NCBI GenBank assembly: GCA_016933955.1
Contig: JAFGTT010000026.1
Span: 62,001 to 126,000 of the forward strand
Reading direction: 5' to 3'
From: Candidatus Zixiibacteriota bacterium
GTDB lineage: Bacteria; Zixibacteria; MSB-5A5; GN15; PGXB01
Length of the DNA: 64,000 nucleotides
A model generated the notes under the pieces. That model was not told the DNA's origin. It saw nothing but the letters and a program-made list of their open reading frames with translations, and did no database searches. The translations under genes and the position numbers were made by a program. Positions 16,355 through 49,331 of the stretch are shown here, piece by piece; position 1 is the stretch's first letter, and each line of letters opens with the position of its first letter.

Positions 16355-16441
16355 ATTCACATCTCTGTCACTTGCCAAATATATCTCCACATGGTATCTT
16401 GATTGACAATTACAATAAAGAGAATAACCGGAGATAATTGG

Positions 16442-18643
16442 ATGCAACCGATATATCTTGATTATAATGCCACCACCCCGATTGACCCGCGGGTGGCCGA
16501 GGCCATGTTGCCATTTATCAATGAGCATTTCGGTAATCCGTCAAGCGGGCATATTTACGGGGTAACGGCCAGAAGGGCGGTCGAAAAGGCCCGTCGTCAG
16601 GTGGCCGAATTACTTCATTGTGATCCCGAAGAAATAATCTTCACCAGCGGCGGATCGGAGTCGAACAATTATGCCATCAAAGGCGCGGCCCGGGCTTACC
16701 GTGATCACGGCAACCACATCATTACAAGCGCTGTGGAACATCCGGCGGTGATCGAGGTCGGCCGCTATCTTGAACAAAACGGATACAAGGTCACCTACCT
16801 GCCGGTCGATTCCAATGGACTGGTCGATCCTGCCCTGGTTGAAAAGGCCATCACGCCCGCCACCATCCTGATCACCATCATGCATGCCAATAATGAAGTC
16901 GGGACTATCATGCCCATTATCGAGATTGCGGAAATCGCCCGTCGGCACAATATCATTATGCATACCGACGCCGCTCAGTCGGTCGGTAAGATTCCGGTCC
17001 AGGTAGATAGCCTGGGTGTCGATCTGCTCTCTGTGGCCGGCCATAAGCTATATGCCCCCAAGGGAATCGGCGCTCTATATATCCGCTCCGGTATTCGCCT
17101 TGAGAAATATGTCCACGGTGCCGATCATGAGCGGAATTTGAGAGCCGGCACTGAAAATGTCATCGAAATAGTCGGGTTGGGTGAGGCCTGCCGCCTGATC
17201 GGCGGTGAAACCGAAAAGCACCGGCAACATCTGAATCGAATGCGCGATCGGCTGGAACAGGGATTGCAAAATAAATTCCCCGATATTAAGATCAACGGTC
17301 ACCCGGAAAAGCGGCTCCCCAACACCACCAGTATTAGTTTTCCGGGATTGGAGGCCAATACTATCCTGGCGGAACTTACCGAGGTTGCCGCCTCGGCCGG
17401 AGCCGCCTGCCACAGCGACAATATCGATATTTCCGCGGTCCTTGAAGCAATGGCTGTTCCTCTGGAGTATGCCATGGGAACAATCCGTTTTTCGGCGGGA
17501 CGGTTTACCACCGGAGACGAAATCGACCGCGCCATCACCGAGATCACCCGGGTGGTGGAAGGACTACAACCATCAGCCGGTAAGGTTACACATATTTCTG
17601 AAACCTCGGAAATCAAATTGACTCAATATACTCACGGCCTTGGCTGTGCCTGCAAGCTCCGCCCCCAGTTGTTGGAAGATATTTTAAAAAAACTCCCGGT
17701 TCCCGACAATGCTGATATTCTGGTCGGTACCGATACCTCTGATGATGCCGCGGTGTACCGACTCAATGACAATCTGGCTGTCGTTCAAACGGTGGATTTC
17801 TTTACTCCGATTGTCGATGATCCTTTCGAATTCGGCCTGATCGCCGCGGTTAATTCGCTCTCGGATATTTATGCCATGGGTGGCCGCCCCCTCTTTGCCC
17901 TCAATATTGTCGGTTTTCCCAGCAACCGTTTGCCGATTGAAGTTCTTGAACTCATTCTGGAAGGCGCACTTGAGGCGGCTGGTCAGGCCGGAATTTCCAT
18001 CATTGGCGGACATACTGTCGATGATACCGAACCTAAATTCGGTCTGGCGGTTACCGGAATAATAAACCCCGCCGAAGTGGTGACCAACCGTAATGCCCAG
18101 CCCGGCGACAGACTGATTTTGACCAAACCCATTGGAACCGGTATCCTGACTACCGCCATGAAACAGGGTCAACTTGAAAAAGAACACAAGGATATTCTGG
18201 TTAAAACCATGGCCACCCTGAACCGAACCGCGGCCGAACTCATGACCGGTATCGGGGTTAATGCCTGCACCGATATAACCGGTTTCGGACTGCTCGGGCA
18301 TCTGCTGGAAATGATGAATGGCTCCAAAACTTCGGCCGAAATTGAGATAAGCCGCATTCCCCTTTTGCCCGGTGTCACGGAAAACGCCGTGGCGGGGATT
18401 ATTCCCGGAGGAACCAGGGACAATCTGGCCTATACTTTAACAGCGACCGAATACGCTCCCGGAATATCCGATACCAAACGGCTGATCTTAAACGATGCCC
18501 AAACCTCCGGCGGCCTTCTGATAGCCATTCCCGATGAGCGGGCCGACCGCTTGCTTAATATGCTTCACAAAAACGGAGTTGAATCTGCTACCATAATCGG
18601 GCGAGTACATGAATCAAGCCATATCCGAATAATGGTGAATTGA
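16442..18643 (+). CDS. selD: Cysteine desulfurase (NifS/IscS-like) fused to selenide, water dikinase (SelD)
   Basis: A 733-residue two-enzyme fusion. Residues 1-380 are a class V PLP enzyme of the NifS/IscS group: YLDYNATTPIDPRV at the start, FTSGGSESNN, HTDAAQSVGK, the PLP lysine Lys202 in AGHKLYAPKG, and Cys323 in the SAGAACHS loop. Residues 390-733 are a complete SelD: Cys402 and Lys405 in HGLGCACKL form the catalytic pair of the glycine-rich N-terminus, followed by DDAAVYRL, VDFFTPIVDDP, FALNIVGFP, IIGGHT and LNDAQTSGGLL. The desulfurase half could release selenide from selenocysteine, or sulfide from cysteine, and hand it to the SelD half, which makes selenophosphate with ATP. ATG 16442 has GGAGA 9 bases upstream. 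The 13-base gap to the sirtuin suggests an operon. A second, selenocysteine-type SelD lies at 46180-47232. Confidence 0.92.
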   Translation: MQPIYLDYNATTPIDPRVAEAMLPFINEHFGNPSSGHIYGVTARRAVEKARRQVAELLHCDPEEIIFTSGGSESNNYAIKGAARAYRDHGNHIITSAVEHPAVIEVGRYLEQNGYKVTYLPVDSNGLVDPALVEKAITPATILITIMHANNEVGTIMPIIEIAEIARRHNIIMHTDAAQSVGKIPVQVDSLGVDLLSVAGHKLYAPKGIGALYIRSGIRLEKYVHGADHERNLRAGTENVIEIVGLGEACRLIGGETEKHRQHLNRMRDRLEQGLQNKFPDIKINGHPEKRLPNTTSISFPGLEANTILAELTEVAASAGAACHSDNIDISAVLEAMAVPLEYAMGTIRFSAGRFTTGDEIDRAITEITRVVEGLQPSAGKVTHISETSEIKLTQYTHGLGCACKLRPQLLEDILKKLPVPDNADILVGTDTSDDAAVYRLNDNLAVVQTVDFFTPIVDDPFEFGLIAAVNSLSDIYAMGGRPLFALNIVGFPSNRLPIEVLELILEGALEAAGQAGISIIGGHTVDDTEPKFGLAVTGIINPAEVVTNRNAQPGDRLILTKPIGTGILTTAMKQGQLEKEHKDILVKTMATLNRTAAELMTGIGVNACTDITGFGLLGHLLEMMNGSKTSAEIEISRIPLLPGVTENAVAGIIPGGTRDNLAYTLTATEYAPGISDTKRLILNDAQTSGGLLIAIPDERADRLLNMLHKNGVESATIIGRVHESSHIRIMVN

Positions 18644-18656
18644 AGAATATACGGTC

Positions 18657-19409
18657 ATGGGAAAATTGGATCAGGCCTCACTGGATAAAGCCGCGAAGAT
18701 GATAAAACGGGCCCGGCGGGTGACTGCCTTTACCGGGGCCGGGATTTCAGTGGAAAGCGGCGTCCCTCCTTTTCGGGGACCGGATGGGCTCTGGAGTCGC
18801 TACGATCCAGCCTGTTTCGAGATCAATTTTTTTCGCACTCATCCCGAGACAGCCTGGCCATTAATCAAAAAAATGTTTTTCGACACTTTCCGCGAAGCCC
18901 ATCCAAACGATGCTCATCTCGGACTGGCCAGGATGGAAACGGCCGGTCGGCTACGTACCGTTATCACTCAGAATATCGACAACCTCCATCAGGCCGCCGG
19001 TTCGAAGGAGGTTTATGAATTTCATGGTAATGCCCGGTATCTGGTGTGTCTTGAATGCGAGGCACGGTATGGCATCGCTGAAATGGATCTGGATCATCTC
19101 CCGCCGGTCTGTCCCGTGTGCCATGGCATGCTTAAACCGGATTTCATCTTTTTCGGAGAGATGATTCCCGAACGGGTTCATTCCCGGTCGCTGTACGAAA
19201 CTATCCATTCGGATATATTCCTGGTAATAGGCACTTCGGGCGAGGTGATGCCGGCCTCAATGATCCCCGCTATAGCCAAACAGAATGGGGCCGGGATTAT
19301 CGAAATCAATATCAGCCCCTCGAATTATACCGGCCGGATAAGTGATATCTTCCTGGCCGGGCAAGCTTCGGATGTCATTAATGATCTCGTCAGATTGCTG
19401 GAAATATAA
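18657..19409 (+). CDS. Sir2-family NAD-dependent protein deacylase
   Basis: A 250-residue sirtuin. Seen in order: the NAD-binding GAGISVESGVPPFRG (residues about 24-38), TQNIDNLHQAAG, the catalytic His in YEFHGNA, a structural zinc site formed by CLEC and CPVCHG, then LVIGTSGEVMPASMIP and the closing EINISPSN. These are the class III/CobB-like landmarks. Sirtuins remove acyl groups from lysines using NAD. It follows the desulfurase-SelD fusion by 13 bases and should be co-transcribed with it; a functional link to selenium use is not known to me and may be incidental. A GNAT acetyltransferase, the opposite activity, follows 87 bases later. Confidence 0.9.
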   Translation: MGKLDQASLDKAAKMIKRARRVTAFTGAGISVESGVPPFRGPDGLWSRYDPACFEINFFRTHPETAWPLIKKMFFDTFREAHPNDAHLGLARMETAGRLRTVITQNIDNLHQAAGSKEVYEFHGNARYLVCLECEARYGIAEMDLDHLPPVCPVCHGMLKPDFIFFGEMIPERVHSRSLYETIHSDIFLVIGTSGEVMPASMIPAIAKQNGAGIIEINISPSNYTGRISDIFLAGQASDVINDLVRLLEI

Positions 19410-41855: not shown

Positions 41856-43949
41856 TTATTTCCCGCGATAGCTGTCGATTTTATTGACAAGGGATGTGAC
41901 TTCATCAGCCTGGTATGGATTCTTGGCGATCACCTCAAGATATGTCTTCCGGGCTACATCCCGGTAGTCGGTTTGCCCGGTGGCAATATAGAGCTTTTGA
42001 TACAACGCGGCCCGCATCAACCACACCGAAAAATCATCCGGATACAATCCAACCGCCTTCTCGGCGGCGGCCAGGGCTTTGTCAACTTGATTAAACAACG
42101 GATATAATTCAGTCAGTATCTTCAGGGCTGATTTATTATTCGGATACCGGGCGATAAATCGTTCCATAAAAGTCAGGGCACTATCATAAACACCGACGGC
42201 CATAAAATCTCGCCCGATCTCATAATCACCTGGTTGATACTGCTCTGCCTCTGGATTCCCGGTCAAACCGGCCACTCTGACTACCACAACTTTCGTATCC
42301 CTGATCCAGTAGGCGCCAATCTCCTGTGCCGCAACAAGTTCGGGATACTTTTGAATAACCGCACCAGAAGCCTCGGCATCAATAACAAAATGCGTAATCG
42401 GAAGATTACGGCAGAAATCAGGATCGGTATCGCTGATTCCGACCGCGTAGATAATCCCCTTTAATTGGTTTTCCAGAAGCAGGGTCGGGGCGATAGGCCC
42501 TGCAATTACAGCCCTATCACCCACAATCTGGGCAAGATCATTGCCGGCTTCTTTGATATTGAAAGATTCCTGTTTCTGCCAGTTAATAAAGGGCAAAAAG
42601 AAGTTTATCGGAACCAGAATAATAGCGGCATAGAAGATAAATTCCTTCAGCCGCTTGAAAGCCAGAAATCGAAAAATCCGGAATTTCCATTCGAGCAGGG
42701 ATACCGCCACCGCAATTGGAGCGGAGATCCACACCAGGCGACGGTATATTGATTCAAATTCTATATAGCGATAGAGATTAAACCAGGTTTGCTGAATAAC
42801 CACCCAGATTATTATCATAAAAATCAGCCTTTTCAACCAATCCGGTCTGGATCGGGTTTGGGACGGAGTCGGCTGGATTTGCGAATAGACATAACCGACT
42901 ATTCCGGCCAGCGGGAAATAGAGCATATAGATATATCTCAGCGGCCGGTAATTTTCAGGCATAAAAACCAACCAGCCGGCGACAAACCAGATTATCAGGA
43001 AAAGAAGCGGGACATGTTCCCGAAGTATTCTGCGAAAATCCGAATAAATAATGATCATAATTGATAAAAATACCGCCCCACCTAAAACAGGAGCATGGAA
43101 ATAAAATCGGGCATCATTCCCAAAACTTATCAGTCGTTCGATCAGGGCCTTCGGGGATTGAAAAGCATCCGGAAAACCATAAAGGCCAACCATATGAGAT
43201 TGATAGAATCCAAACAAACGGCTGGGATTTCCGCCATATACAAAAACCACCCAGAGGATAATTACCAGTCCGCATGACAGAATCACCTGACCGATTTCTT
43301 TGATTTTATGTCCTCCCGGTTGCACCCAGAGAGACACAATCACAGGAAATATTACTACCAGAGCCAGTATTTTTCCGGCCAGGGCCGCCAGAGCGATAAG
43401 AATCCCAAGAATTATCCGCCCCGATAGAGATTCTCGGTAGTACTGAAAAATATAGAAAGCCAGACAAAGAATAAAAATCATCCCATTCTCGGTATATGGT
43501 AACCGCCCGAAAACATAAATAACCTTGTCGAATAGTAGAAGAACGATCACCAGCAATAATCCTCTGGCATCAAGCCATCGGCGCAAAGCCAGGAGAAAAA
43601 CCAATATGGCCGAAAGCGACAGAATCAAACCGAGGAGATTGGCGGACCATCGTGATATCCCCAGGATCGAAAAAGCCAGATAACTTAGGGTCGACACCAG
43701 GGTCACTTCGAACATCCGCCACCGGGCACTGTCGAAAATTTCCCACTGATCAAAGAGTATTTTATTCCGGGCGAAATATGAATAATGATATGGGTCGGTT
43801 GATAATGACTGGCCATGGCCGGTGAAATACAGCGGCGGATCACTGTCCAGATCATGCACATGAAGATATATTCCAATCATGGCCACGGCCACAATTAGCA
43901 CCCATCGCATTATTCCGGCGGGATTGCTATAATTCGCGGAAGGAGTCAT
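41856..43949 (-). CDS. GT39-like membrane protein with C-terminal TPRs (copy 1)
   Basis: A 697-residue polytopic protein. TM1 is followed by DLDSDPPLYFTGHGQSLSTDPYHYSYFARN, a luminal acidic loop at the position where PMT/ArnT-type GT39 enzymes have their catalytic Asp. About eleven helices follow, with the luminal YVFGRLPYTENGMIF and FMPENYRPLRYIYMLYFPLAG. The region 440-560 is a soluble domain, and the C-terminus (residues 575-690) is TPR-like (EIGRDFMAVGVYDSALTFMERF, ALAAAEKAVGLYPDDFSVWL). It would use a polyprenyl-linked sugar donor. It is a close paralogue of the gene at 44004-46100, 54 bases upstream in the same direction, so the pair arose by tandem duplication. Confidence 0.75.
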   Translation of the reverse strand: MTPSANYSNPAGIMRWVLIVAVAMIGIYLHVHDLDSDPPLYFTGHGQSLSTDPYHYSYFARNKILFDQWEIFDSARWRMFEVTLVSTLSYLAFSILGISRWSANLLGLILSLSAILVFLLALRRWLDARGLLLVIVLLLFDKVIYVFGRLPYTENGMIFILCLAFYIFQYYRESLSGRIILGILIALAALAGKILALVVIFPVIVSLWVQPGGHKIKEIGQVILSCGLVIILWVVFVYGGNPSRLFGFYQSHMVGLYGFPDAFQSPKALIERLISFGNDARFYFHAPVLGGAVFLSIMIIIYSDFRRILREHVPLLFLIIWFVAGWLVFMPENYRPLRYIYMLYFPLAGIVGYVYSQIQPTPSQTRSRPDWLKRLIFMIIIWVVIQQTWFNLYRYIEFESIYRRLVWISAPIAVAVSLLEWKFRIFRFLAFKRLKEFIFYAAIILVPINFFLPFINWQKQESFNIKEAGNDLAQIVGDRAVIAGPIAPTLLLENQLKGIIYAVGISDTDPDFCRNLPITHFVIDAEASGAVIQKYPELVAAQEIGAYWIRDTKVVVVRVAGLTGNPEAEQYQPGDYEIGRDFMAVGVYDSALTFMERFIARYPNNKSALKILTELYPLFNQVDKALAAAEKAVGLYPDDFSVWLMRAALYQKLYIATGQTDYRDVARKTYLEVIAKNPYQADEVTSLVNKIDSYRGK

Positions 43950-44003: not shown

Positions 44004-46100
44004 TTAATTGCCGTTTTGACCCGCCCGACTGGTTATTTTCCTGGCGGCCGCATCGATTTCATCCCAATGGTAAGGATTGATCTCCAGGACTCTTTTATAA
44101 TGTTGCCTGGCCATGGTCATCATCCAGGCTTCTCCGGTGGCTACATACAGCGTCTGGTAGTAGATTCCAAGGTCCATTTCCAGGGAAAAATCGGTCGGGT
44201 ACAACAGGGCGGCCCGCTTTAAGATTTCAAGTCCCTTATCCGTCTGCCCAAGCAGGGGATAAAGAGACCCAAGCGTCCGCAAAACCGATTTATTTTCAGG
44301 ATGCGAAACTGCGAATTTCTCCAGGTAGTAAAGGGCGCTGTCATAATGATGATTATATATATATTCTCGACCCCGTTCATATTCGGTGGGATAATAGTTC
44401 GCCGAAATTCCATTACCGGTTAAATCACTTATACGAACGACAATGATCAGCATGTCATTGATCCAGTATTCCGTTACCGGTTCCGCGGCCTTAAGTTCAG
44501 GATATTTTTCCATAACCATCTCGGAGGTTTTGAAATCGAAAGCGAAATGTGTCACCGGGTTTTTACGGAAAAGATCGGGATCATAATCCGAGATTCCCAC
44601 CGCGTAAATAAATCCCTTGAGATTATTTTCCAATAGCAGAGTCGGCGCCATCGGACCGCTGACAACTGCGTTTTCATCCAGAATCTGCCCCAAATCCCGG
44701 CTGGCTTCTTTAATATTCAACGACATCTGGTGTTGCCGCTGATAATAATTGGAGCCAAAATTCCAGAGAGTAAATATGATTATAAAAACAACCGCGGCCG
44801 TTTTGAAATAACGACTCGTAATAAATCCGATAAACCCGGTCCGATACTCGACATAGGTCAGGATTGCCGCCAATGCCGCCGACAAGCAGACCAGATCCTG
44901 ATAAACGCTGGTATAGACTCTTTCAATCAGGATATTGAAGGCCAGTTGCTCAAGAAATATCCAGAAAAGGAAAAAAATCAGAATATAATAACGATAACTT
45001 CGATCACCATTGCGGCGACCGGCCAAAATGGCGCTGCTGGTGAAGACATAGGCCACCAGACCGGTCAAAGGAAAATATAACATATAAATGTATCTGACCG
45101 GACGATAATTCTGCGGCATGAAAAATAACTGCCCGACGACAAACCAGACAATCAGGAAAACCAGGGGAATATTGTTTTTTAAAATATCCCGTGATATGGC
45201 GCATAATATCAGTAAAAAGGCAATGAATCCGGCGATACCAAGAGCCGGAGCCCGGTAATAAAAGCGCGAGTCATTGCCGAAACTGATCAGCTTTTCAAAA
45301 AAAGTAAGGGGGGATTTGAAGGCGGCTGGGAATCCATGCAATCCGACCGTATGCGATTTATAAAAACCAAGCAGGAGATTGAGACTGCCTCCATACACAA
45401 TAATGGCCCAGACCGCCGATAAAGCCAGACATGAAGCTACCGCGGTTAGAATAGCGGTTGTTTTGTTACCACGGGATTCCACCAGGAAGCCCGCTATCAC
45501 CGGAATAATAAGAAGATAGCCGAAAATTTTCCCGGTCAGCGCCGCCAGTGCCACCAGTATCCCCAGGATAATCTGTCCGAATAATTTATCGCGATAATAA
45601 ACGAAAACGAAGAAAATCAGCGAGGCCAGAAAAATCAGCCCGTTTTCGGTATATGGCAATCGCCCGTAAACGTACAGCACCTGGTTAAAAACCAGTAGAA
45701 ACAAGGCCAGAAAAATACCCCGAAAATCAACCATCCGTCGCAGGGCCAGAACAAAAAACAGGATTGAGAGCAAAGATAACAGCAAACCCGGCAAATTGGC
45801 GGTGAAACGAGATATTCCAAACAGGGAAAAAACAATATAACTTAACCCGGAAACCAGGGTCACCTCAAACACCCGCCACCGGGAAGTATCAAACATCTCC
45901 CACTGATCGAATAGGACTTTGTTGCGCGGAAAATAAGAATAATGATGCGCATCGGTCATTAATGATTGTCCCTGCCCGCCGAAATACAGCGGCGGATCGG
46001 CATCCAGGGCCGAGAATCGGGTGTACAACCCCACAATAATAATGATTCCGATTATAATCCAGGTGATATTCCGGAGACGATTGTCACTCAGTCCGACCAT
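44004..46100 (-). CDS. GT39-like membrane protein with C-terminal TPRs (copy 2)
   Basis: A 698-residue paralogue of the downstream gene. The same landmarks are present: DADPPLYFGGQGQSLMTDAHHYSYFPRNK after TM1, the luminal YVYGRLPYTENGLIFLA, FMPQNYRPVRYIYMLYFPLTG, then a soluble domain and TPRs (GREYIYNHHYDSALYYLEKF; SLEMDLGIYYQTLYVATG). The N-terminal membrane half is more alike between the copies than the soluble half, so they may share a donor and differ in acceptor. The start is ATG 46100 with GGGAT upstream. The gene lies 79 bases downstream of the selenocysteine-type selD but no functional link is evident. Confidence 0.75.
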   Translation of the reverse strand: MVGLSDNRLRNITWIIIGIIIIVGLYTRFSALDADPPLYFGGQGQSLMTDAHHYSYFPRNKVLFDQWEMFDTSRWRVFEVTLVSGLSYIVFSLFGISRFTANLPGLLLSLLSILFFVLALRRMVDFRGIFLALFLLVFNQVLYVYGRLPYTENGLIFLASLIFFVFVYYRDKLFGQIILGILVALAALTGKIFGYLLIIPVIAGFLVESRGNKTTAILTAVASCLALSAVWAIIVYGGSLNLLLGFYKSHTVGLHGFPAAFKSPLTFFEKLISFGNDSRFYYRAPALGIAGFIAFLLILCAISRDILKNNIPLVFLIVWFVVGQLFFMPQNYRPVRYIYMLYFPLTGLVAYVFTSSAILAGRRNGDRSYRYYILIFFLFWIFLEQLAFNILIERVYTSVYQDLVCLSAALAAILTYVEYRTGFIGFITSRYFKTAAVVFIIIFTLWNFGSNYYQRQHQMSLNIKEASRDLGQILDENAVVSGPMAPTLLLENNLKGFIYAVGISDYDPDLFRKNPVTHFAFDFKTSEMVMEKYPELKAAEPVTEYWINDMLIIVVRISDLTGNGISANYYPTEYERGREYIYNHHYDSALYYLEKFAVSHPENKSVLRTLGSLYPLLGQTDKGLEILKRAALLYPTDFSLEMDLGIYYQTLYVATGEAWMMTMARQHYKRVLEINPYHWDEIDAAARKITSRAGQNGN

Positions 46101-46179: not shown

Positions 46180-47232
46180 CTATGTCACGGTTATGGTAAT
46201 CCTGTTTTTTTCTGTAATTCGGCCAATCCGGGCAATACTTAACGTTTCGGCCCGCGGGTCCCGAAGAAGTCGCTGACAGGAATTGTCATCAAGGGCGATC
46301 AACAGCCCACCCGAAGTCTGGGCATCAAACAGAACATCTCTTTGTGACTGCGACAGGTGATGGGAAATATTTATCTTATCCTGAAGATATTCACGGTTGG
46401 CATTGGCCCCTCCGGTCAGAGCCCCGGCCTCAGCGTATTTGACAGCACCGGGAATGATCGGTAATGACGCATAATCGATTTCGATCGAAACCTCTGAGGC
46501 TTCCGCCATCTCAAAAGCATGGCCCAGAATTCCGAACCCGGTTACATCGGTGGCGGCCCGGGTGCCATACTCCTTCATCAGTTCTGAGGCGGTCTTATTC
46601 AATTGCGCCATCTGGCAGGAAACCGCCTCGGTATCGGCTTCGGAGGCCAGTTTTTTCTTGATAGCAGTGGTAATGATACCGGTTCCGAGCGGTTTGGTCA
46701 GAAGCAGGCAGTCACCCGGTTTGGCCCCGGCATTGCTTATAATCTTATCGATATCTATGATTCCGGTGCAGGCCAGCCCGTACTTGAGTTCGTTGTCTTT
46801 AATTGAATGACCGCCAACAATAATGGCTCCGGCCTCATGAATCTTATCCGCGCCGCCGCGAAGGATTTCTGTCAGAATGAATGCCGGCATTTTGGGCGGA
46901 AATCCGACGATATTCAAAGCTGTTAAGGGAGTCCCCCCCATAGCATAAATATCCGACAAGGCATTAGCGGCGGCAATCTGGCCGAAGACATACGGATCAT
47001 CGACGATCGGCGGGAAAAAATCCACCGTTTGAACCAGCGCCTGACTCTCCGAGATCCGAAAGACCCCGGCATCATCGGCCTTATTATATCCGACCAGTAG
47101 ATTCGGGTTACTTTCCGGTGGAAGACTTTTTAATACTTCAGCCAAAAACTTTGGCCCCAGTTTCGAGGCTCAACCCGCACAGGAGACTTCCCCGGTCAGT
47201 TTAATTTCAATCTCATCCCGGTTATTGTTCAT
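46180..47232 (-). CDS. selD: Selenocysteine-containing selenide, water dikinase (SelD)
   Basis: A 350-residue SelD read through an in-frame TGA at 47170-47172. From ATG 47232 the frame gives 20 residues ending SCAG, then TGA as residue 21, then ASKLGPKFLAEVLKS and a full SelD body (DDAGVFRI, VDFFPPIVDDP, ALNIVGFPPK, IIVGGHSIKDNELKYGLACTG, DVTGFGILGHAFEMA, FDAQTSGGLLIALDD). The TGA aligns with catalytic Cys17 of E. coli SelD (Cys402 in the fused copy of this window), and Lys24 matches its Lys20. A perfect GCCAAA/TTTGGC hairpin with a GTT loop begins 14 bases after the TGA, within the range of bacterial SECIS elements. Without readthrough the conserved N-terminus would be lost. The start has no strong ribosome binding site. 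It makes selenophosphate from selenide and ATP. Confidence 0.9.
47141..47155 (-). promoter_or_regulatory. SECIS-like hairpin for selD TGA
   Basis: On the minus strand GCCAAA-GTT-TTTGGC forms a six-pair stem with a GTT loop. The loop lies about 21-23 bases after the TGA (47170-47172). Bacterial SECIS elements recognised by SelB have a short stem with G and U in the apical loop at about 16-37 bases from the UGA, so position and loop fit. SelB itself is not in the window. Confidence 0.75.
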
Positions 47233-47284: not shown

Positions 47285-48289
47285 TCAATGCCGACCTGTA
47301 AGAACCCTGATTTTGCTTTTTTGTTTCCTCCTGATAGCGGAAGGGATATCATCATAAATCGAATTCAGGTACTGCCTCAATTGAGGATTGTTGTCCTCCT
47401 GTCCCTTTTTATCATATGACTGCCCGAGATAATACGCCGCTTCGATTACATTATAGTAATTTCCCGGATGGCTTCGGAGGCGTTCCAGCAACCGCCCGTA
47501 AACGGCCGCCGAGGAATCGTAATTTCCGCTCTTATAATAGCCCTCGGCCAACGGCCAGAGGAAAGAATTGCCATCGGGATATTCCGCCAGCATCTCCCGG
47601 CACAGGTCAATCGCGGAATCATACTGCCTTTCATTAATCAAAATCCAGATCAACGAGGAACGGGCGGTTGCGCGCGAAAAAAGAGCCGAATCGGCGGCCA
47701 GTCGGACTTCCCGAATGCCTTTTTCTTTTTCATCTTTGAGAAGTCCCGTAAACTTCAGGATTCCCGATTTGACGGATTTCCAGTAATGATATGACCCGAG
47801 GCCGAGATAAAGATCATAAAGGGTCGAATCGCATTTCAAACCAGCCTGATATTTCCGGCGCGCTTTCATGCCATAACTTATGGAAGATATTGTTGAACCG
47901 AATCGTGTTTCCCAAAGCGAACGGTAGGCGGACCGGTGTCCGAGGCAAAGAAAATACAGGGCCGAATCCGAGGAGGAGCAGGCGGTCATTTTTTTCTCGG
48001 CGCTCAATCCGATACTGTCGCACAGATTTTTAAACTCATCCTCGTACAGGTTTTCCTCGCGATCCATCATCTCCGCATGAAGTGCCGCCGCCCTCATCAA
48101 ATACCCGACCGGATCTGTCGTATCGCGATAATACAGTTCCCGGAATAACTTCCGGGCCTCATTCCAGCTGCCATTCATCAAGGCTTTCTGGCCGGCTTTG
48201 ATGATTTCGATTCGTGATTCAGGCAGAGAATTTGCCCCGGAAAAGCCATATAATTGAAGCAGAAAAGAAATGAGGATAACGCAATTCAT
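47285..48289 (-). CDS. TPR protein, exported (paralogue pair, copy 1)
   Basis: A 334-residue protein with an N-terminal signal segment (MNCVILISFLLQLYGFSGANS) and TPR-like repeats over the rest: ALMNGSWNEARKLFRELYYRDTTDPVGYL, AIDLCREMLAEYPDGNSFLWPLAEGYYKSGNYDSSAAVYG. The stretch KCDSTLYDLYLGLGSYHYWKS and EKGIREVRLAADSALF also occurs, altered, in the next gene upstream (ELDSTFYDAYWGLGAYYYYRT; EKGMSMIRRAIDSGFL), so the two are paralogues. The ATG overlaps the stop of that gene as ATGA. It is probably periplasmic. Function unknown. The Sec-type selD starts 52 bases downstream, possibly in the same transcript. Confidence 0.75.
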   Translation of the reverse strand: MNCVILISFLLQLYGFSGANSLPESRIEIIKAGQKALMNGSWNEARKLFRELYYRDTTDPVGYLMRAAALHAEMMDREENLYEDEFKNLCDSIGLSAEKKMTACSSSDSALYFLCLGHRSAYRSLWETRFGSTISSISYGMKARRKYQAGLKCDSTLYDLYLGLGSYHYWKSVKSGILKFTGLLKDEKEKGIREVRLAADSALFSRATARSSLIWILINERQYDSAIDLCREMLAEYPDGNSFLWPLAEGYYKSGNYDSSAAVYGRLLERLRSHPGNYYNVIEAAYYLGQSYDKKGQEDNNPQLRQYLNSIYDDIPSAIRRKQKSKIRVLTGRH

Positions 48290-49296
48290 CGATTCCTGTC
48301 TTTGATTTCTTTGACTTTCTTATAGGTTTCGGCGAAGTAGGCATTCTCGTCAGCCCGGCTTTTCTGAGAAATAAGATAGTCGATGATCTTTTTAAAAGTA
48401 TCCCCATCCCCTCTGGCCAAAGCCAGCCTGGCATAAAGCAGTTCCGATTCCAGGGCCCCATCAGGGTCGAAATATGATGATTCCTTCCAGGCTACTTTCA
48501 AATCCAGTATGGCTTCCTCAGCTTCATCAGTTTTCCCCAGAGCCAGCAGAGCCTCGATATAATACAGCAAATAATATGGATCATCCGGATCGCTTTCAAG
48601 GAGCGAATCGGCCAGGGTAATTACCTCGTCATAACGATTCTCGAAGGTGTAGATACGCAAAAACGATGGCCGTGCCAGTTCATTGGCCAGAAAACCGGAA
48701 TCGATGGCTCGCCGGATCATGCTCATTCCCTTTTCGCGGTCATCGGTGATAAAGGGTAACCAGATAAAATCCTTCGCTTTCAGGGTTCGATAATAATAAT
48801 AAGCGCCCAACCCCCAGTAGGCATCATAAAAGGTGCTGTCGAGTTCAAGGGCTATTTTCAGATTGGAATTGCATTTTAATCCATCTCGAAAAGCCGTCCA
48901 CCAGTTGCCATGGAAGGCTCGATGTAACCCCAGATATCCGTACGCCGCTCCTGAAATAAAATAATACCCGGCATTATCCGGATCCTTATCCAGACGTTTA
49001 TCGCACAGATCAATGGCCATTTCCAGATTGCTGTCAATATCATCTTTGAATGAATCATTGCGATATTCTTCAGATACCGTCTGATAAATAGCGCCCAGAA
49101 GAAAATAGCCAAGCGGATTCCCCGGCTCCCGGTCTATTATATTTTGGCTGCTTTCAATAGCCGCCCGGAAATTATTGATATAAATATCGTCGGAAATTTT
49201 TGCTATCGCCGGGTCATGAATGGTAGTCTCGGCGAGGATTCGGCTCGGCACAGCTATGAGAATAAAAAAAACAATGAAAATATATTTCCCGATCAT
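48286..49296 (-). CDS. TPR protein, exported (paralogue pair, copy 2)
   Basis: A 336-residue protein with a signal peptide (MIGKYIFIVFFILIAVPSRILAE). About six TPR-like repeats follow: AAIESSQNIIDREPGNPLGYFLLGAIYQT, YYFISGAAYGYLGLHRAF, VITLADSLLESDPDDPYYLLYYIEALLALGKTDEAEEAIL. It is a paralogue of the following gene, with which it overlaps by 4 bases. ATG 49296 is chosen over a GTG at 49311 because a TAGACT-N17-TATAAT promoter ends 6 bases before it, which fits a leaderless start. Periplasmic location is predicted from the signal peptide; no partner or enzyme motif is visible. Confidence 0.75.
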   Translation of the reverse strand: MIGKYIFIVFFILIAVPSRILAETTIHDPAIAKISDDIYINNFRAAIESSQNIIDREPGNPLGYFLLGAIYQTVSEEYRNDSFKDDIDSNLEMAIDLCDKRLDKDPDNAGYYFISGAAYGYLGLHRAFHGNWWTAFRDGLKCNSNLKIALELDSTFYDAYWGLGAYYYYRTLKAKDFIWLPFITDDREKGMSMIRRAIDSGFLANELARPSFLRIYTFENRYDEVITLADSLLESDPDDPYYLLYYIEALLALGKTDEAEEAILDLKVAWKESSYFDPDGALESELLYARLALARGDGDTFKKIIDYLISQKSRADENAYFAETYKKVKEIKDRNR

Positions 49297-49302
49297 GATG
49301 TA

Positions 49303-49331
49303 ATTATACACCTGCGATCGGCTTCAGTCTA
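49303..49331 (-). promoter_or_regulatory. Promoter set for leaderless transcription of TPR operon
   Basis: TAGACT (49326-49331), 17 bases, TATAAT (49303-49308), read on the minus strand. The ATG at 49296 is 6 bases beyond the -10 box, so the transcript should begin at the start codon itself. Confidence 0.6.

Follow-up and report, generated by a model that had tools for sequence, protein, structure and literature searches.

The locus raises the question of whether the TGA that interrupts its selD reading frame ends translation or is read as selenocysteine (Sec), making SelD itself a selenoprotein, as an earlier note on this DNA had proposed. We addressed this in the window (the whole 64,000-nt stretch of DNA that was analysed) and in related genomes, considering the gene itself, the RNA just downstream of the UGA and the machinery for Sec insertion. 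Taken together, UGA conservation, constraint on a downstream hairpin and the presence of selA, selB and selC support SelD as a predicted selenoprotein.

The selD frame and its in-frame UGA

The gene lies at 46180..47232 on the minus strand, and its frame, running from 47232 to 46180, contains a single in-frame TGA (47172-47170) and no further stop until the terminal TAG. Translated with TGA as U, it gives a product of 350 aa that begins MNNNRDEIEIKLTGEVSCAG-U-ASKLGPKFLAEV... and that we assign to the Sec-type selenide, water dikinases (selenophosphate synthetases). The selenophosphate synthetase family TIGR00476 matched residues 12-316 of this readthrough protein with E=8e-119 and 396.5 bits (cut-off 125), a full-length homology above the curated cut-off, and both the AIRS and the AIRS_C domains are present. 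The TGA, codon 21 of the gene (47170..47172, minus strand), aligns with the active-site Cys of solved SelD structures (3u0o and others); it is followed by Ser23 at +2 and Lys24 at +3 (GUASK). The placement of the TGA at the catalytic Cys, the Lys at +3 and the intact SelD sequence on both sides had all been claimed from the single sequence, and all held, as did every coordinate in the earlier note. Judged from its sequence, the readthrough protein is a whole SelD, and its predicted activity is selenide-dependent ATP hydrolysis to selenophosphate. The same note had warned that a gene finder would shorten the gene to a TTG start at 47145, and indeed, when ORFs are called with table 11 and without readthrough, the longest selD ORF is the TTG-started 46180-47145, of 321 aa.

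Adjoining selD at 44004-46100 and 41856-43949 (minus strand) are genes for two tandem, similar proteins of ~700 aa, apparently membrane proteins with TPR-like repeats at the C-terminus, one of which shows a weak match to PMT glycosyltransferases. Directly upstream of selD, two TPR-protein genes overlap each other (47285-48289 and 48286-49311, minus strand).

The genome that contains the window is a draft assembly of 38 contigs, 96.6% complete; its named relatives are Candidatus Zixiibacteriota, a lineage known here from metagenome assemblies only. A six-frame search found a SelD-like sequence in 71 of the 81 genomes of the order, and in 70 of these 71 a SelD copy is interrupted by TGA; in the remaining one (G016) the match is without the N-terminal part. 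In 70/70 copies TGA stands opposite residue 21, within the same flanking motif, Lys is found at +3, and the coding sequence is intact on both sides. Sec-type SelD proteins of the same family show 62-79% identity. Relatives with a plain stop and a decayed upstream region, which the earlier note had named as the finding that would speak against its proposal, were thus not seen. Its description of Ser23 as replacing the second Cys of the usual C-x-C was accurate as to the residue, but Ser at this place is not odd: position +2 is Ser or Ala throughout the order. The pattern extends further still. Among the 80 nearest SelD loci in named genomes, mostly from other phyla and 47-76% identical to the SelD of the window, 68 have TGA and 12 a Cys codon at the aligned position, so that the UGA is conserved at a Cys/Sec position well outside the lineage.

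A hairpin downstream of the UGA

We then considered the RNA that follows the UGA. As had been noted, a perfect hairpin, GCCAAA-GTT-TTTGGC, is found at 47155-47141, starting 14 bases past the TGA; an additional G-U pair extends it to 47140..47156 (minus strand), giving 7 bp, a GUU apical loop and a distance of 20 nt between UGA and loop. The bacterial SECIS model requires a loop of 3-9 nt, a stem of 4-16 bp, a G in the first two loop positions and 16-37 nt from the UGA (PMC13188914). The SelD hairpin falls within this model on every count, with its 3-nt loop, 7 bp, 20 nt and a loop beginning G[G/U] in all 70 sequences of the order.

Folding gave a mixed answer. In the minimum-energy fold of the single sequence, the UGA is itself paired with downstream bases in a rival stem (z -0.4 to -1.1). 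If the UGA is barred from pairing, as it would be with a ribosome paused on it, the hairpin replaces the rival stem as the free-energy minimum. Since the fold of a single sequence is not decisive, the evidence that the hairpin goes beyond chance is comparative. RNAalifold recovered the same stem unaided from the aligned sequences, and the rival stem showed no covariation in the aligned SelD sequences of the order. The alignment comprises 70 sequences, 68 of them distinct, with the stem in columns 17-23/27-33. With relatedness between the genomes ignored, the stem was paired in 94.7% of cells (80% in shuffles), both sides had changed in 5 of the 7 pairs, and double-change cells numbered 62 where 17 were expected. 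None of 500 shuffles equalled the hairpin on paired cells or on covariation score, and sliding the partner by one column dropped pairing to 55-56%, with slid controls reaching at most 56%. From genome to genome the inner stem varies (AAA/UUU, AGC/GCU, GGG/CCU, AAC/GUU and AAG/CUU), and it is paired every time.

The loop is constrained as well. Its first base, which is a third codon position, is G in 70/70 sequences (again with kinship ignored), and its second is U or G in all 70. Depending on the genome, the codon that ends in the invariant G stands for Lys, Ala, Gly, Glu, Gln, Thr or Arg, seven amino acids in all; elsewhere in the same SelD genes only 31% of Lys codons and 28% of Ala codons end in G. 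From this pattern in the aligned sequences, the hairpin downstream of the selD UGA is judged to be under RNA-level selection, and we annotate it as a putative bacterial SECIS on the strength of covariation, the invariant loop G and the consensus fold. An Rfam scan of the selD region gave no match to a SECIS family. When the genome was searched with a covariance model built on the SelD SECIS, no further strong site emerged; the second match was the homologous spot in a NifS-SelD fusion gene (14.6 bits, not significant). A simple scan of the window for a TGA plus a hairpin gave several further matches, none of them gene-like by homology.

Sec machinery, a second selenoprotein and rival readings

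Sec insertion calls on selA, selB and selC, and the earlier note had pointed to their absence as a possible refutation. On contig 15 of the genome (G000:C15), selA (486 bits) and selB (318 bits) lie next to each other, each scoring above its cut-off. For selC, no whole tRNA-Sec gene was found in the genome, where an Rfam tRNA-Sec search gave Ser, Leu and other tRNAs only. Among relatives, tRNA-Sec scored above cut-off in 62 of the 81 genomes of the order, and ARAGORN reported an intact tRNA-SeC(TCA) in all seven relatives examined. The difference was accounted for when a relative's gene was used as the query at the DNA level: its bases 1-55 are found without mismatch at the end of contig C10 (114697-114751 of 114752), and its bases 62-94 (33 nt) likewise at the start of contig C35. 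From these two exact fragments at contig ends we infer that selC is present and cut by a contig break, as a putative split gene at G000:C10:114697-114751 plus G000:C35:1-37 (loci L129 and L130); tRNA finders report it absent because it is split.

A second selenoprotein is encoded on contig 36 (G000:C36:50327-51034, minus strand; locus L238). This peroxiredoxin scores above the cut-off for PrxU (NF040737) and its only TGA falls at the peroxidatic position (FTFVUPTE), where TGA is found in 30/30 PrxU copies read (its own and those of 29 relatives). In this genome's gene the UGA is followed, after 17 nt, by a clear 11-bp hairpin whose loop is GGUC. As in PrxU generally, the UGA stands at the peroxidatic Cys position; the protein is no SelD but a further user of the same Sec machinery. 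SelD is therefore not the sole selenoprotein, and selenophosphate has at least one other use. We found no tRNA selenouridine synthase (YbbB/SelU) in the genome, which makes use of selenophosphate for tRNA selenouridine unlikely here. There was also no Sec-FdhA, the nearest FdhA-like ORFs having no TGA and scoring below cut-off, and the FlpD matches are likewise without TGA.

We conclude, with a probability of about 97%, that this selD encodes a selenophosphate synthetase whose catalytic residue 21 would be selenocysteine, inserted by means of SelB and the hairpin. Actual Sec insertion and catalysis we infer from established knowledge of the pathway. At the selD UGA, SelB carrying Sec-tRNA(Sec) would bind the downstream hairpin and deliver Sec in place of termination. 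The finished SelD would convert selenide and ATP to selenophosphate, which SelA would use to turn Ser-tRNA(Sec) into Sec-tRNA(Sec). As SelA would consume the selenophosphate made by SelD, the enzyme would contribute to the residue at its own active site and to that of at least one further selenoprotein, PrxU.

Could the UGA instead be a true stop, leaving a truncated or decaying SelD, or one translated solely from the TTG at 47145? An ORF finder using table 11 yields exactly such a 321-aa ORF, but its product would have no active site; moreover, the codons upstream are conserved as coding in 70 relatives with TGA at the same codon, and decay would not preserve TGA, hairpin and reading frame across an order. 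We regard this as highly improbable. A TGC or TGT misread as TGA, through an error of sequencing or assembly, might be entertained, the genome being a draft in 38 contigs, yet the same TGA recurs in 70 genomes of the order, each assembled separately, and in 68 of the 80 SelDs from named genomes, mostly of other phyla, which makes the chance of an error negligible. The same negligible weight goes to a genome-wide reassignment of UGA to a standard amino acid such as Trp or Gly: while it would account for an in-frame UGA that is evidently read through, TGA ends 18 of the 39 long non-overlapping ORFs in the window, stop-free paralogues carry Cys rather than Trp or Gly at the aligned residue, and the genome holds dedicated Sec machinery.

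A different possibility is that the UGA is read through, mostly with a near-cognate amino acid or Cys rather than Sec. Low-level readthrough and substitution of Cys for Sec do occur in other systems, and this lends the idea some general plausibility. Against it stand the RNA-level selection for the SECIS and the intact Sec pathway, given which Sec is the expected product when selenium is available; we consider it very unlikely that another residue predominates.

A NifS-SelD fusion and comparison with known systems

Sec-type SelD is a known kind of gene. It made up 19% of detected SelD genes in a 2015 reference set (PMC4561486), and the earlier note was right that such proteins occur in bacteria with a SECIS just downstream (PMC4561486). 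The 68 TGA codons among the 80 nearest SelDs likewise show the type to be far from rare. The Sec-type bacterial SelD/SPS proteins described in Pasteurellales, Clostridia and Deltaproteobacteria (PMC4561486, PMC1794560) have the UGA at the same position as here, a SECIS just downstream and SelA, SelB and tRNA(Sec), as here; we see no mechanistic difference. Zixiibacteriota are not discussed as Sec-SelD carriers in this literature (PMC4561486, PMC1794560). The gene type is thus common and the case ordinary, here spanning an entire order of uncultured Zixiibacteriota.

The less ordinary part of the window is a gene at 16403..18643 (plus strand) that joins a NifS-type cysteine desulfurase (approximately residues 17-388) to a Cys-type SelD (approximately residues 401-744) in one frame. 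The gene is listed from a TTG; translation may in fact begin at an in-frame ATG, at 16442. TIGR00476 scored 401 bits in the same 746-aa ORF as the desulfurase domain; for the latter, TIGR03402 fell short of its equivalog cut-off of 530.75 with 480.9 bits, while Aminotran_5 was above its own. Where the Sec-SelD has UGA, the SelD half has a Cys codon, TGT, at 17645-17647 (GCACK). A Sir2-family gene (18657-19409, plus strand) starts 14 bases past the fusion and may share an operon with it.

NifS-SelD fusions were rare in the 2015 survey, which listed two prokaryotic cases plus Acanthamoeba and Naegleria (PMC4561486). The domain order is the same here, with the NifS-like part N-terminal and the Cys-type SelD C-terminal; unlike those cases, the present fusion has a stand-alone Sec-SelD ~28 kb away, and within the order its SelD half falls in a separate, supported clade, distinct from that of the Zixiibacteriota Sec-SelDs. 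In another genome (G077) the two genes are ~33 kb apart on one contig. The fusion occurs in 11 of the 81 genomes of the order, and all 11 also have Sec-SelD. Because a Sec-SelD could not otherwise be made without selenophosphate, one may imagine the fusion as a Sec-independent starter or backup, in which selenium from the desulfurase domain would yield the first selenophosphate and so allow Sec-SelD to be made. Retention of Sec-SelD in all 11 fusion genomes fits a division of labour and not a replacement; against a need for such a starter, most genomes of the order are without the fusion, and we hold the idea only tentatively, as rather unlikely.

For this genome, the analysis corrects a gene that standard ORF calling shortens at the cost of its active site, and shows that selC is hidden by a contig break. 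It also indicates use of selenocysteine, in SelD and PrxU, across an uncultured bacterial order. Genomes that hold both a self-dependent Sec-SelD and a Cys-type NifS-SelD fusion provide a natural test of how cells set going a pathway of selenium use whose first enzyme depends on what the pathway itself makes.
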